A stretch of 64,000 bases of DNA from Aquabacterium sp. NJ1. Lineage in GTDB: Bacteria > Pseudomonadota > Gammaproteobacteria > Burkholderiales > Burkholderiaceae_C. Where the stretch lies: positions 2,728,001-2,792,000 of the forward strand of contig NZ_JRKM01000001.1 of NCBI RefSeq assembly GCF_000768065.1, in the 5' to 3' direction. A program made the translations under genes and the position numbers. The notes beneath the pieces were generated by a model. The model searched no databases and was not told where the DNA came from. It saw only the letters and a list, made by a program, of their open reading frames with translations. Of this stretch, positions 52,208 to 57,848 are shown piece by piece. Positions within the stretch are counted from its first letter, which is position 1, and every line of letters starts with the position of its first letter.

Positions 52208-52353
52208 GAAAAAAGAAACGGCGCGAGAAAAAAATACAGTGTTATCAGAATATGCTGTGTCCAATCAGACAGTTATCCAGACAAACCCTGTCCACTTCCT
52301 GCCGTAAAACGCGAGGTAATAGGGCCGTGAGATCACCCGAGGAGCGCCGCTTC
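52208..52353. promoter_or_regulatory. divergent control region of TetR gene and sphingolipid operon
   Basis: An A/T-rich stretch with two short palindromes, TGTC-N6-GACA (52258-52271) and GACA-N5-TGTC (52280-52292). They share the same half-site and could be binding sites for the divergent TetR protein, controlling both directions. Confidence 0.4.
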
Positions 52354-53043
52354 GTGGCCACCACTTCTGCCAAAGAGTCCACCAAAGATTCAGCCAAAGA
52401 TGCCGCCAAGGAAACGCGCAAGCTGCGCGAGGCCGAGCAGCGCCGCAAGGCCATCATCAAGATCGTGCGCAAGCTGATCAAGAAGGGGGGCCTGGCCGAT
52501 GTCTCGCTGCGCAAGGTGGCCGAGCTGGCGGGCTACTCCACCACGGTGGTGTACTCGCTGTTCGAGGACAAGGCCATGCTGATCACGCAGGCCATGGACG
52601 AAGACCTGCTCGAGCTCACCCGCGTGATGTCGGCCGCGGCCAACGCACACAAGACCCCGGCTGACCGCATCCGTGGCATGGCGCGGGCTTACATCGCGTT
52701 CGGCATCGCGCACCCGGCCGAGTACGCCTTCGTGTTCATGCAGCAGCGCCCGCATGCGCCCAACGAGTCGGCGCGTGTGCAGCATGGTGATCCGTCTGAA
52801 GACCCGTATGCCTTTGGCCGCAGCCTGTGGGCCGATCTCGCGCAAACGGGGGCGGTCAGCAACAAGGATGTCGACATCGACCTGATGACCCAGATCTTCT
52901 GGGAGGGCATCCACGGCCTGACGGCGCGCCACCTGGTGATGGGCCCCGATGACGTCTGGTTCCCCGAGGTGCCCAGTGAGCGCCACATCGAGCTGATGAT
53001 CGAGGTGCTGCTGGGCGGCATCGTGCAGCAGTTCAAGTCTTGA
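52354..53043 (+). CDS. TetR-family regulator of the sphingolipid operon
   Basis: 229 residues from the GTG at 52354 (AGGAG upstream; a GTG at 52327 is also possible). A Lys/Ala/Glu tail (MATTSAKESTKDSAKDAAKETRK) precedes the HTH: RKAIIKIVRKLIKKGGLADVSLRKVAELAGYSTTVVYSLFEDKAMLITQAM. The C-terminal ligand domain (WEGIHGLTARHLVMGPDDVWFP) is of the common TetR_C type. Divergent from the cytochrome gene, so it should sense a lipid product of the pathway; that is inference. Confidence 0.9.
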   Translation: MATTSAKESTKDSAKDAAKETRKLREAEQRRKAIIKIVRKLIKKGGLADVSLRKVAELAGYSTTVVYSLFEDKAMLITQAMDEDLLELTRVMSAAANAHKTPADRIRGMARAYIAFGIAHPAEYAFVFMQQRPHAPNESARVQHGDPSEDPYAFGRSLWADLAQTGAVSNKDVDIDLMTQIFWEGIHGLTARHLVMGPDDVWFPEVPSERHIELMIEVLLGGIVQQFKS

Positions 53044-53129
53044 CCGGGGCCTGAACAAGCCCTGAAGCTCCCTACAATGCCACTGCGCCATCCGGTGCGG
53101 TGGCGGTTTGTCTTGGATGGAGTGGGCTC

Positions 53130-53693
53130 ATGGGCAAGGTCGGGGAAGTCACGCAGCTGCTGGCTGCAGCGCAGCAAGGGCAGTCTGAGGCGCTCAACCG
53201 CCTGTTCGACCTGCTCTACCCGCAGCTGCGCCAGATCGCCTCGGCGCGCATGCGCAAGACCGACGAGCGCGTGATGCTCGACACCACCTCGCTGGTGCAC
53301 GAGTGCTACCTGCGCCTGCTCAAGCTCGAAGAGCTTTCGCTCAATGACCGCGGCCACTTCCTGGCCTACGCCGCCAAGGTGATGCGCTCGGTGGTGGTGG
53401 ACATCGCCCGCGAGCAACAGGCCCAGCGCCGTGGTGGCGACATGGCCTTTGTCACGCTGGACACTGCCGTGGCCAGCGGCCTGCCCAGCGGCGAAGACGA
53501 GGTGCTGCACATCCACGAAGCGCTCGAAGCGCTGGGCGCCATCGACCCGCGCCTGGTCAAGGTGGTGGAGATGCGCTACTTCATCGGCCTGGATAACAGC
53601 GAAATCGCCGAAGTGCTGGACGTGAGCACTCGCACGGTCGAACGTGACTGGGAGCGCGCCCGCAGCTTCCTGTTTGCGGCCCTCAAGGCCTGA
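53130..53693 (+). CDS. ECF sigma factor of the kinase-linked group
   Basis: 187 residues from the ATG at 53130 (GGAG upstream). Sigma region 2 is TSLVHECYLRLLKLEELSLNDRGHFLAYAAKVMRSVVVDIAREQQAQRRGGD and region 4 is PRLVKVVEMRYFIGLDNSEIAEVLDVSTRTVERDWERARSFL. This matches the ECF group encoded next to Ser/Thr kinases (TIGR02999 type), where phosphorylation by the kinase replaces an anti-sigma factor. In Xanthomonas and Vibrio such pairs control type VI secretion or antibiotic resistance. The kinase gene starts 34 bases downstream. Confidence 0.92.
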   Translation: MGKVGEVTQLLAAAQQGQSEALNRLFDLLYPQLRQIASARMRKTDERVMLDTTSLVHECYLRLLKLEELSLNDRGHFLAYAAKVMRSVVVDIAREQQAQRRGGDMAFVTLDTAVASGLPSGEDEVLHIHEALEALGAIDPRLVKVVEMRYFIGLDNSEIAEVLDVSTRTVERDWERARSFLFAALKA

Positions 53694-53727: not shown

Positions 53728-56700
53728 ATGAAGATCCCCATGGCCTTGTGGCCCCGCCTCATGCCCTTGCTGGACGAGGCCCTGGCGCAGCCCCGTGAGC
53801 AGCGCGAGGCCTGGCTGCGCGACTTGACGCTGGACGATGAAACGCGTGCCGCGCTCAAGCAACTGCTGGCCGACCGCGAAGAACTGGATGGCGGTGCCTT
53901 CATGGCCGAGCTGCCCAAGCTGGCGCCGCTGGCATCAGCGCCCTCGCCCTCGCCCTTCCCTTCGCCAGATGGCCCCCACGAACCCGATGAAGCCGACGCC
54001 CGCTCGAACCGCGTCAGCCAGTCCGGCCTGTTCGCTGGTGACATGCTGGGCCCCTACCGCCTGATCAAGCCTTTGGGCCAGGGCGGCATGAGCGTGGTCT
54101 GGCTGGCCGAGCGCGATGACGGCCAGATCCGTCGCCAGGTAGCCCTGAAGATGCCGCATGCCGGCCCCGGCCAGGCCCTGCTGGCCGAACGCCTGCGCCG
54201 TGAACGCGACATCCTCGCCAGCCTGGAACACCGCCACATCGCCCGCCTGTACGACGTGGGCACCGCGCCCACCGGCCTGCCCTTCATGGTGCTGGAGTAC
54301 ATCGAAGGCCTGCCCTTGCCGGCCTATTGCGATGAACACCGTCTCAACCTGTACGAGCGCCTCAAGCTCTTCCTGCAGGTGCTCAGCGCCGTGCAGTACG
54401 CGCACACCAAGCTCGTGCTGCACCGCGACCTCAAGCCCAGCAACATCCTGGTCAACCGCGAAGGCGAGGTCAAGCTGCTGGACTTCGGCATCGCCAAGCT
54501 CATCCGCGACAGCGAGACCGGGCTGGTGGCGCCCTCCACCGAACTGACCCAGCACAACGGCCATGTCCTCACGCCGGACTACGCCGCGCCCGAGCAGATC
54601 GCCGGTCAACCCTTGACCACTGCCAGCGACGTGTACGCACTCGGCGTGATCCTGTTCGAGCTGCTGACCGGCCAGCGTCCTTACCGCCTGCCCAGAGGCA
54701 CACGCGGTGCGCTCGAAGAGGCCATCCTGGTCGCCGATGCGCGCCGGCCCAGCCAGGTCTGGCTCGATGCCGATGTGCAGACCCACCACCCCACCGCGGT
54801 CACGGTCAGCGATCTGGCCGAACACTTCAGGGCCAGCCCCCGCCGCCTGAGCCAGTTGCTGCGTGGCGACCTCGACGTGATCGTGGCCACCGCCCTGCAA
54901 AAGCAGGCCACGCGCCGCTACCCCACCGCCGAAGCCTTTGCGCAGGACATCCAGCACCACCTGGCCAAGGAGCCTATAGCGGCCCAGCCGGACAGCCGCT
55001 GGTACCGCACACGCAAGTACATCCAGCGCCATGCCTGGGCCCTGAGCGCTGTGGGGGCCGTCGTCGCCGCCTTGAGCGTGGGCCTGGGCCTGGCCCTGTG
55101 GCAAGCCAAGGAGGCCCGGCAGGAAGCGGCCAAGGCCAACGCCATCAAGGACTTCCTGGTCGGCCTGTTCGAGAACGGCGACGTGGAACAACCCGATGCC
55201 CTGCGCAAGCGCCAGCAGACGGTTGAGCAGTTGCTCATCAACAGCGCCAATGCACTGGGCACCCAGCTCAAGGACCAGCCCGAAGTGCGCGTGGAGCTGC
55301 AAGGCGTGGTGGGCGGCTTGCTGCACAGCCTCGCGATCACCGACGAGGCCATCAAGCTGCGCAAGCAGCGGTTGGCGCAGCTTGAAGCCATGAGGGCGTC
55401 AGTGGCAGAGCGCGCGCAGGCCTTGAGGGAGTTGGCGGATAGTCAGGATGCGAGGGGGGATACGCAAGGCGCAAGGGCAACCTTGGACAGGGGCTTGGCT
55501 TTATGCAGGGCCGCGCAGATGCAGCCTGCGACAGTTTGTTATGGTTTGCAGGTTGCCCGAGGGCAGATGGAAGCGCTCGCACGCAACATTGAGGTCGCTG
55601 AACGCGAGATCGCACCAGCGTTGAAGGTACTGGAGCGTCAACGCATGCCCAGCACGCAATACGCCGAGGCGCTAGTGGGGATGGGCGACATACTGAGTCT
55701 GAAGGGGCAGGCCGATACTTCTTACGCGCTGTACAAGGAGGCCATGCGGGTCCGCACCATGTTATGGGGTGCAAACTCAATACGGCTGGCAAAGGAGCGA
55801 TTTCAGTTGGCCATGAGCCTAGGCATGGTGCGCAGACTTAGTCAGGCAGATGAGGAGCTGCATGCAGCCTTGACGGTGATGACCAACGCGCTCGGCCGAG
55901 AGCACTTGAGCACGGCTACGGTGGAGTTGCAATTGGGCCGGCTTCATGCGCTTTTGGGGACTGAACAGGACGCTCACGCCTTGATAGAGCATGCTGGTTC
56001 GGTGATTTTGAAGCACCGGGGCGAGGCAGATGCCAGAACGGTTGTTGACGCGCTGTGGGCGCAAGGAGAAAGCGCGCTGTTCGAGGGGCGCATGTCTGAC
56101 GCAAGCGCCAGCCTGAATGCTGCAATGACCTTGCATCGCTCAGCGGACAGAGGCATACCTCGAGACGGCTTATTAGAAATAACGATGGCTTGGTATCTGA
56201 TCGATATGGGGCAATACCAAGCCGCGCGGCAACTGTTGTTGCATACGCGTGACGCCCTGTTTGGCGCGACGCGGGATGCCTCCTCCATGGTCCATGCTGT
56301 AGAAGAAGCGATTGCGTCTAGCTATCTTGCTGAGCAACGCTTTGATGACGCCAAGCTTTGGTTGATGCGGGCATCAAGGCTGGATACGTCAGTTTCGAAC
56401 CCATCGCCACTGCCACAGGTCGACTACAAGGCCAGTTGGGCTGCGCTGTATCTGGAGCAAGGCAAGTTGAGCGATGCTGAGCCGTTTGTGCGTGCCTACA
56501 TGGACGCGATCACCGGGCAAGCACGCGGTGACACTTTTGTGCTGGACATCTATGCGTCCAATGACCTAGCTGCTCGCATGGCCCTGGCTCAGGGGCATCC
56601 GCGTGACGCGAAGAAGTATTTCGAGCGAGCTATCGAAGCATTGGCTAAGTTGGGTCCTGGAAATCCCTATCTGGCGGTAACACGTAGTCGATACGCAGAA

Positions 56701-56838
56701 GTCCTGCATCTGCTGGGCGACCAGTCGGCATCCCTGCATCAATTGAGTTTGGCCCAAATCGCGTTGAAGCGTTGCGGCACAACCGCAGCTCATTTTTGGC
56801 GTGTATATCAGCGTGTCGAGAAACGTGTTGCAAGTTGA
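53728..56838 (+). CDS. transmembrane Ser/Thr kinase with large periplasmic TPR-like sensor
   Basis: 1036 residues from the ATG at 53728 (28 earlier in-frame residues overlap the sigma gene). Kinase domain about 108-400: LGQGGMSVVWLAERD, VALKM, HRDLKPSNIL (D234) and DFGIAKL with DYAAPEQ. One transmembrane helix near 437-457 (WALSAVGAVVAALSVGLGLALW). The remaining 580 residues are helical TPR-like repeats (LEAMRASVAERAQALRELADSQD... LYKEAMRVRTMLWGANSIRLAKE). The 3' part, from about 55390, uses noticeably more A/T codons than the kinase part. Probably activates the ECF sigma factor when the sensor binds a signal. Confidence 0.92.
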   Translation: MKIPMALWPRLMPLLDEALAQPREQREAWLRDLTLDDETRAALKQLLADREELDGGAFMAELPKLAPLASAPSPSPFPSPDGPHEPDEADARSNRVSQSGLFAGDMLGPYRLIKPLGQGGMSVVWLAERDDGQIRRQVALKMPHAGPGQALLAERLRRERDILASLEHRHIARLYDVGTAPTGLPFMVLEYIEGLPLPAYCDEHRLNLYERLKLFLQVLSAVQYAHTKLVLHRDLKPSNILVNREGEVKLLDFGIAKLIRDSETGLVAPSTELTQHNGHVLTPDYAAPEQIAGQPLTTASDVYALGVILFELLTGQRPYRLPRGTRGALEEAILVADARRPSQVWLDADVQTHHPTAVTVSDLAEHFRASPRRLSQLLRGDLDVIVATALQKQATRRYPTAEAFAQDIQHHLAKEPIAAQPDSRWYRTRKYIQRHAWALSAVGAVVAALSVGLGLALWQAKEARQEAAKANAIKDFLVGLFENGDVEQPDALRKRQQTVEQLLINSANALGTQLKDQPEVRVELQGVVGGLLHSLAITDEAIKLRKQRLAQLEAMRASVAERAQALRELADSQDARGDTQGARATLDRGLALCRAAQMQPATVCYGLQVARGQMEALARNIEVAEREIAPALKVLERQRMPSTQYAEALVGMGDILSLKGQADTSYALYKEAMRVRTMLWGANSIRLAKERFQLAMSLGMVRRLSQADEELHAALTVMTNALGREHLSTATVELQLGRLHALLGTEQDAHALIEHAGSVILKHRGEADARTVVDALWAQGESALFEGRMSDASASLNAAMTLHRSADRGIPRDGLLEITMAWYLIDMGQYQAARQLLLHTRDALFGATRDASSMVHAVEEAIASSYLAEQRFDDAKLWLMRASRLDTSVSNPSPLPQVDYKASWAALYLEQGKLSDAEPFVRAYMDAITGQARGDTFVLDIYASNDLAARMALAQGHPRDAKKYFERAIEALAKLGPGNPYLAVTRSRYAEVLHLLGDQSASLHQLSLAQIALKRCGTTAAHFWRVYQRVEKRVAS

Positions 56839-56919
56839 TTTCGAGTTGTCGGTTTAGGGATGGTGTTTTCGTTTATTCAATGAGAAGCTCTCATGCTTCA
56901 AGCTTTGAAGGACTTTCCG

Positions 56920-57243
56920 ATGATTGATGCATACACTTGCGCCCGTTCGGCTCTTTTGGCTTCTTTGCTGGCGATCTCTGCTTACCCGACTCATGCAGAA
57001 AATGCGCCTGCGCCCAAAGCGGCTGTCATGACGGCGTCTGCTGCAACCGGCGCAGCATCACGCGTGGTCGCTACGCCGGGCAAGGTCACCCCTGTTGTAC
57101 CCAAAGGAAGCACAGCGGGTGGTGTGGTCATGAAGAATGGGGAAAATCAATATCCAACGGGGCAACTACCCATTCCCCCCAAGCCCAAAAAGGAAGGCCT
57201 CGAAGCCGCTGGTGCGGTCAAGGCCAAAGCCGCTCAGCCATAA
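56920..57243 (+). CDS. small exported protein with one PPKPK motif
   Basis: 107 residues from the ATG at 56920 (GAAGGA, seven bases upstream); an ATG at 56893 adds nine residues with a weaker SD. Signal peptide MIDAYTCARSALLASLLAISAYPTHA. An Ala/Val/Lys-rich mature chain ends with QYPTGQLPIPPKPKKE, the same motif that is repeated in the next gene. 81 bases after the kinase gene, so probably transcribed with it or by its sigma factor. Function unknown. Confidence 0.65.
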   Translation: MIDAYTCARSALLASLLAISAYPTHAENAPAPKAAVMTASAATGAASRVVATPGKVTPVVPKGSTAGGVVMKNGENQYPTGQLPIPPKPKKEGLEAAGAVKAKAAQP

Positions 57244-57260: not shown

Positions 57261-57289
57261 TCCCTCTTCGGGCGCACACCGAAGAGGGA
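57261..57289. other. perfect 11-bp hairpin between the two PPKPK genes
   Basis: TCCCTCTTCGG and CCGAAGAGGGA around a 7-base loop, 18 bases after the first stop. No T-run follows on the plus strand, so it may be a transcription attenuator, an RNase-processing site or an mRNA stabiliser rather than a classic terminator. Confidence 0.6.
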
Positions 57290-57347
57290 ATGCAAGGAAC
57301 TCATGCGGCACTAATCTGTCCCCTTCAACTCACTGAAGGGAATCAGC

Positions 57348-57848
57348 ATGCGTCGCACTTTGTTGTCTTGGCCTGCCAAGGTCATGGTCATCGCCGTTTC
57401 GGCAATCGGGGCTTCCGGGTCGACCTGGGCGCAGCCCTCCAATGTACTGGTGCAGCAATCGGCCGGTAAGGCCACCGCAGAGCAGGATTGGATCCCCTCT
57501 GGTAGCGTTCCCATTCCGCCAAAGCCCAAAGCCCGTGATGCTGGCGAAGCAGGAGCGGATGAGTATCCAACAGGCGGGATCCTCATTCCCCCTAAACCAA
57601 AGGCGAAGGTAGGTTCAGGCGACGACGATTCGTTTGGCTTGACGGCCTATCCCGGAGGAACAATCCCGCTTCCTCCTAAGCCGAAGGCCCAAGAGGACGC
57701 CGATGCTGGAGTTGATGCTTACCCGAGCGGCACTATTCCCATTCCTCCGAAACCCAAGGCTCGCGAAGATGGGGAGACAGGGCTGGATTCCTTTCCCACT
57801 GGGACGATTCCCGTTCCCCCCAAACCCAAATCAACCATCCAATACTGA
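57348..57848 (+). CDS. exported repeat protein with five PPKPK motifs
   Basis: 166 residues. Signal peptide MRRTLLSWPAKVMVIAVSAIGASGSTWAQ. The mature chain is five units of about 23-28 residues, each with [Y/W/F]-x-P/S-x-G-[T/S/G]-[I/V]-[P/L]-[I/L/V]-P-P-K-P-K: IPSGSVPIPPKPKA, YPTGGILIPPKPKA, YPGGTIPLPPKPKA, YPSGTIPIPPKPKA, FPTGTIPVPPKPKS. Acidic spacers (ARDAGEAGADE, AQEDADAGVDA) alternate with the basic motif. Extended, disordered secreted protein; a scaffold, adhesin-like or signal protein are possible. AAGGGAAT precedes the ATG. Confidence 0.7.
   Translation: MRRTLLSWPAKVMVIAVSAIGASGSTWAQPSNVLVQQSAGKATAEQDWIPSGSVPIPPKPKARDAGEAGADEYPTGGILIPPKPKAKVGSGDDDSFGLTAYPGGTIPLPPKPKAQEDADAGVDAYPSGTIPIPPKPKAREDGETGLDSFPTGTIPVPPKPKSTIQY

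Follow-up and report, generated by a model that had tools for sequence, protein, structure and literature searches.

A PPKPK motif under purifying selection in exported proteins encoded beside an ECF sigma factor and a Hanks-type kinase of Aquabacterium sp. NJ1

Computational analysis of a 64,000-nucleotide stretch of the Aquabacterium sp. NJ1 genome (the window, in the following) has revealed a short motif, PPKPK, which is under strong purifying selection while its codons and the spacers between its copies drift. The motif is carried by two exported proteins, P5 (five units) and its smaller sibling P2, whose genes close a cluster in the order sigma factor, kinase, P2, P5, all on the + strand (Table 1), and within the genus it co-occurs with orthologues of this kinase. 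We tentatively read P2 and P5 as exported motif proteins of the periplasm, largely disordered and auxiliary to an ECF43-type sigma factor/Hanks-type kinase module, that may dock on a TPR superhelix of the kinase; this is the account we prefer, and we hold it with somewhat less than even confidence.

Table 1. Features of the sigma factor/kinase/P2/P5 cluster (window positions, except where the relative L004 is named)
Feature	Position	Strand	Basis or remark
Box upstream of the sigma gene, AAGCTCCCTACAATGCCACTGCGCCA plus GC-rich inverted repeat	53064..53105	+	kept in 6/8 genus genomes
ECF sigma factor, sigma2.2 motif DTTS	53130..53693	+	PF07638/TIGR02999
Hanks-type Ser/Thr kinase, ~1036 aa if the start is MKIP; kinase domain, one TM helix, TPR region	53728..56838	+	
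Kinase TM helix, LSAVGAVVAALSVGLGLAL	55042..55098	+	hydropathy maximum
Presumed periplasmic TPR region of the kinase, C-terminal to the TM helix	55093..56835	+	TPR_12; structure model
P2, sibling exported protein with one unit, probable signal peptide	56893..57243	+	ORF list, sequence comparison
P2 core (single unit)	57151-57189	+	
Hairpin between P2 and P5, 11-bp stem, no T run	57261..57289	+	stretch -22.3 kcal/mol
P5, exported repeat protein, 166 aa, ATG start	57348..57848	+	ORF list
P5 probable Sec signal peptide, 28 aa	57348..57431	+	by eye and hydropathy
P5 unit 1 core, IPSGSVPIPPKPK	57492..57530	+	
P5 unit 2 core, YPTGGILIPPKPK	57564..57602	+	
P5 unit 3 core, YPGGTIPLPPKPK	57648..57686	+	
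P5 unit 4 core, YPSGTIPIPPKPK	57720..57758	+	
P5 unit 5 core, FPTGTIPVPPKPK	57792..57830	+	
IS256-like element end, ~48 bases, inside the P5 array	L004 8300-8355		plasmid matches

The original prediction, made from the sequence alone, had placed a signal peptide and five proline-rich units with acidic spacers at 57348-57848 (+). Reading of the sequence and the open reading frame, whose boundaries coincide exactly with these positions, has confirmed this arrangement with a probable signal peptide, which has been read by eye as MRRTLLSWPAKVMVIAVSAIGASGSTWA, the mature protein starting at QPSN; the best 11-residue hydropathy value (2.52) lies at residue 12. The units measure 24, 28, 24, 24 and 18 residues in order, and each of the four spacers is acidic, with three to four D/E and at most one K/R. 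The five-fold IPPKPK that had been proposed has held in its PPKPK part, found in all five units, and not as the exact hexapeptide, which occurs in three of them, the others reading LPPKPK and VPPKPK. The core is also longer than six residues: it comprises 13, with the consensus [Y/F/I]P-x-G-x-x-[P/L]-[I/V/L]-PPKPK, an invariant frame P-x-G-x-x-x-x-PPKPK and an aromatic first residue in four of the five cores. When the mature P5 was shuffled 200,000 times, PxGxxxxPPKPK appeared once in 22 shuffles and twice in none, and PPKPK alone occurred in one copy in 1,123 shuffles, in two copies in a single one and in more copies in none. Among the 559 stop-to-stop frames of at least 60 residues in the window, PPKPK is confined to P5 (five copies) and its upstream neighbour P2 (one copy). 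Neither P2 nor the sigma and kinase genes had figured in the original prediction.

Searches of Pfam and NCBIfam have returned no family for either protein, the matches Herpes_capsid (E 0.5) and FrsA-like (E 0.086) being taken as chance, and a search of solved structures with P5 has found no relative (best E 0.18). This best structural match, chain 4jiv_D ('Putative uncharacterized protein', presumably a type VI secretion PAAR protein), has been dropped because PPKPK is not kept in the alignment. Plasmid and phage sequences searched with P5 have given no match at E 0.01. P5 is predicted to be disordered, its model reaching a mean pLDDT of 52 and a pTM of 0.12 with the signal peptide as sole helix, a weak prediction since the alignment held two sequences. 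The suggestion that the motif binds SH3-like or peptidoglycan-linked domains could appeal to the PxxP element inside PPKPK (in PPKP); the searches for families and solved relatives leave it unsupported, we know of no bacterial SH3b domain that reads PxxP, and the context points instead to the TPR-bearing receptor kinase of the same cluster, so that we regard such binding as very improbable.

Among the five units of P5, the PPKPK codons show a pN of 0.000 at a pS of 0.98, versus 0.293 and 0.69 in the eight codons that open the core; the unit pairs compared are not independent. This bears out the proposal that selection acts on PPKPK itself while the spacers drift. Across six genomes PPKPK is kept in 16 of 17 full cores, and the one departing core (PLKPR) belongs to the copy in L004, an Aquabacterium MAG, where it lies behind a disruption of the array. 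As PPKPK is free of replacement change at such a pS and Tandem Repeats Finder reports no array at the P5 gene, it is the protein motif that is selected and not a DNA repeat, and a reading of P5 as a simple DNA repeat fails on the latter result. A spurious low-complexity frame, which a lack of homologues with a conserved motif would have suggested, is not upheld either: such homologues exist, near-saturated synonymous change has left PPKPK unchanged in five units, and a homologous, though broken, array stands at the same place in another Aquabacterium genome. The motif offers a clean natural case of a short linear motif that selection maintains as codons and spacers drift.

In P2, which has a second possible ATG at 56920, the N-terminal half aligns poorly between genomes and conservation is concentrated at the C-terminus, with the conserved end QYPTGQLPIPPKPKKEGLEAAGAVKAKAAQP; over the last 31 residues, four genomes differ by 11-13 synonymous versus 2-6 replacement codon differences. 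Third-position GC is low in both motif genes (0.53 in P2, 0.58 in P5, versus 0.76 in the kinase and 0.88 in the sigma gene). Besides the strong hairpin between P2 and P5, a second one (57316-57346, -11.6 kcal/mol) includes the probable ribosome-binding site of P5, and in the L004 relative there is no evident counterpart of either. No shared or sigma-dependent promoter has been recognised before P2 or P5, where the short intergenic gaps also lack conservation. The terminator-like sites behind P5 (57852-57879) barely exceed the chance level, with 6 found versus 3.8 (sd 1.8) expected.

L004 is the sole relative that the named genome collection has yielded, and represents the same contig as G005 of the genus sample, a 280-base stretch being identical. 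Its P5 frame contains three intact units, a stretch that brings in stops, a partial unit and then a final unit with the ending SNIQY, which resembles the STIQY of the P5 in the window. The disrupting stretch matches 146 plasmid records, the best at 97.9% over 48 bases, and in this best match an IS256 family transposase gene stands six bases away from it. No second copy of the insert has been found in G005 (with up to 2 mismatches), G000, G003, G002 or G019. Judged from these matches, an insertion sequence apparently disrupted the array, and behind the break, the only place where decay is seen, PPKPK apparently began to change.

At a threshold of E 0.1 or better, the motif query matches six of 42 Aquabacterium genomes, and an orthologous kinase (E 1e-80) is present in eight of the 42. 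P2 follows the kinase gene in all six motif genomes and no motif genome lacks the kinase, a co-occurrence with a Fisher's exact p of 5.3e-6, uncorrected for shared ancestry. G028, with a kinase and no motif match, has a contig that ends inside the kinase, the first part of which lies in another frame. G020 combines a kinase with a different proline-rich protein at the place of P2, which has a probable signal peptide, ends in ..GQDRQFPAPNPRPPVPPRMPGDLQEKLGNKAVGH and may be a diverged version of P2; a second kinase copy there reaches the contig end. The number of units, which was to be compared between strains according to the original prediction, does vary, across species rather than strains, P2 having a single unit in G000, G002, G003 and G037, two units in G005 and G019, and P5 having five in the window. 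Intact P5 is confined to the window genome, L004/G005 having a broken copy, and P5 has not been detected in the other four P2-bearing genomes; on this distribution it is dispensable.

Outside the genus, a 36-residue motif query against 399 family genomes and a degenerate P2-end pattern against 399 order genomes have each returned a single match, the window's own genome, in samples that hold few genus members and limit the spread outside the genus only. A related kinase (E 1e-70) is found in 88 of the 399 family genomes. In 20 kinase loci chosen among these from other genera, neither PPKPK nor a loose motif occurs in any frame of at least 40 residues, which argues that related kinases do not need the motif. 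The genes downstream of these 20 kinases, fully itemised for four loci, differ and reveal no general link to small exported proteins under a crude signal-peptide rule. Weak P5 matches in G061 and G015 (E 0.001-0.003) have been dropped, as their loci contain no PPKP, and an own-genome match (L003, E 0.9) likewise. As far as searched, the motif proteins supplement a single kinase lineage inside Aquabacterium and are not a general part of the module. This narrow spread (six genomes in the genus, the window's own in the family), the low third-position GC and the broken P5 would also suit young, lineage-specific genes of little or no function, carried along with the kinase by shared descent. We consider this quite improbable, since PPKPK has undergone no replacement change while its synonymous sites are nearly saturated, and the P2 C-terminus is conserved, both of which need a function, and decay is confined to the region behind the break.

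The sigma factor scores 168.8 bits against PF07638 (cut-off 21.1) and 191.5 bits against TIGR02999 (cut-off 126.15), a family which we take to be ECF43. In nine compared sigma sequences, aligned by eye, sigma2.2 reads DTTS in seven and DTTA in two, so that a threonine stands at the EcfP/EcfK phosphosite in all nine, but the first Asp of DxxD is retained. The order of sigma and kinase genes is the same in relatives, and the box upstream of the sigma gene, a probable promoter or leader, is kept although the genes preceding it differ between genomes. A TetR-type gene (52252-53043) contains a 12-base tandem repeat (3.8 copies, 52365-52409) encoding AK[ED]x repeats near the N-terminus of the regulator, the number of which differs by species, being long in the window, shorter in G028 and one in L004.

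The kinase gene, whose longest frame begins at 53644, encodes a kinase domain (PF00069, E 1.5e-42), a single TM helix and a C-terminal TPR region in which TPR_12 is also found, the layout of a PknS-like receptor kinase. The model of the TPR region (mean pLDDT 74.9, pTM 0.60, the first 80 residues mostly below 50) has been placed by Foldseek and VIA-align 2 with TPR superhelices (OGT, LGN, kinesin light chain), with RapI (Z 18.1), PlcR (17.3) and phage Rap (16.7) as lower-ranked matches, and a sequence search has given kinesin light chain 2 at E 0.0007. TPR superhelices commonly bind extended peptides, but the fold is no proof by itself. Across the remaining five kinases with a P2 neighbour, the TPR region shares 47-53% identity with that of the window, with few invariant positions beyond the first ~100 residues in the six genomes, a comparison that leaves out G146, the closest of the 20 kinases read from other genera. 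The first 100 residues from the TM helix (55093-55450) are far more conserved than the remaining TPR region (44 and then 31 of 50 invariant in six genomes), yet it is here that the model is least sure.

An invariant short motif in disordered proteins, standing beside one TPR kinase lineage and so far only there, is most simply accounted for if the TPR region reads the motif. The TM helix followed by a helical array that resembles peptide-binding TPR superhelices (LGN, kinesin light chain, RapI, PlcR) argues for such docking; the variable TPR region, the dispensability of P5, the related kinases outside the genus that do without the motif, the G020 kinase with its lack of a PPKPK protein and the strong hairpin between P2 and P5 argue against it. 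By analogy with published relatives, the kinase would phosphorylate the sigma factor at the sigma2.2 threonine and thereby switch it on. P2 and P5 should meet the TPR region in the periplasm, where the motif may dock on the superhelix. P2, whose gene directly follows that of the kinase, would act as the basic ligand setting kinase activity, and P5, with five units on acidic spacers, as a multivalent version that might cluster or buffer kinase molecules; docking might activate or inhibit, and a periplasmic ligand could either release or reinforce an inhibition by the periplasmic region of the PknS type. The further proposal of a self-encoded repeat ligand, in which the P2 and P5 units bind the TPR superhelix of a PknT/PknS-like kinase and act via sigma phosphorylation, the number of P5 units setting the valency, appears rather unlikely to us. 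If true, the cell would read its own envelope state or its neighbours, and an RRNPP-like logic would have been rebuilt across the Gram-negative inner membrane.

Possible as well, and close behind docking, is an output role: with the sigma factor on, P2 and P5 would be made as envelope proteins, and their motif would not contact the kinase but bind an envelope component (LPS, an anionic glycan or a conserved protein of the periplasm, for instance). Both genes close the cluster and share its strand, and EcfP and EcfK govern resistance to polymyxin and a type VI secretion system, both of them envelope and defence outputs. Moreover, the motif is more conserved than the variable TPR region, so that a less variable partner fits it better. 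The lack of a recognised sigma-dependent promoter before P2 or P5, the unconserved gaps and the lack of a match to a known binding family weigh against this role. An improbable third reading takes P2 and P5 as propeptides from which proteases free motif peptides, a secreted signal that the TPR kinase would read in an RRNPP-like manner outside the inner membrane. A small exported protein encoded immediately after a TPR receptor, the C-terminal conservation of P2, the repeated units of P5 and the presence of RapI, PlcR and phage Rap among the structural matches are in line with it. However, no processing site has been identified, many TPR proteins match equally well or better, the receptor lacks the RRNPP plan, and the P2 and P5 units exceed the typical RRNPP peptides, which are shorter.

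Returning to the docking reading and the systems with which it invites comparison, the cluster resembles the RRNPP systems (Rap-Phr, PlcR-PapR) in that a TPR receptor is encoded alongside a small exported protein, and the TPR region structurally matches RapI, PlcR and phage Rap. The RRNPP plan is a cytoplasmic TPR receptor, usually with an HTH domain; unlike it, the receptor of the window is a membrane kinase with the TPR region outside the inner membrane and no HTH, and we have not filed it as RRNPP. TagR-PpkA of Pseudomonas aeruginosa may be named as a related system; unlike P2 and P5, TagR is not known to be a disordered motif-repeat protein. The literature searched has yielded no report of such PPKPK repeats, of motif-repeat proteins co-encoded with such a module or of a sigma factor/kinase module in Aquabacterium. 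The closest relatives are the ECF43 sigma factor/Hanks-type kinase pairs EcfP-PknT (Vibrio parahaemolyticus) and EcfK-PknS (Xanthomonas citri) (PMC8999054; PMC13147305). As in these pairs, an ECF sigma gene adjoins a transmembrane Hanks-type kinase. In the alignment by eye a threonine falls at the sigma2.2 phosphosite, but the sequences compared here keep the first Asp (DTTS or DTTA versus STTA or QTTA). PknS is described with an N-terminal extension, a kinase domain, a TM helix and three periplasmic TPRs (PMC13147305); the window kinase shares this plan, with a long TPR region of 581 residues and 27 predicted helices in place of three TPRs. In X. citri, a truncated PknS without the periplasmic region is phosphorylated under non-inducing conditions and the full-length protein is not, and activation through the periplasmic region is left to future studies in this 2026 paper (PMC13147305). 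Unlike EcfP-PknT and EcfK-PknS, as far as the available descriptions go, the pair in the window is followed by exported motif proteins. The kinase/sigma module is of a known type, to which this cluster adds co-encoded motif-repeat proteins; P2 and P5 matter as a concrete, testable candidate ligand or output for one receptor-kinase lineage.
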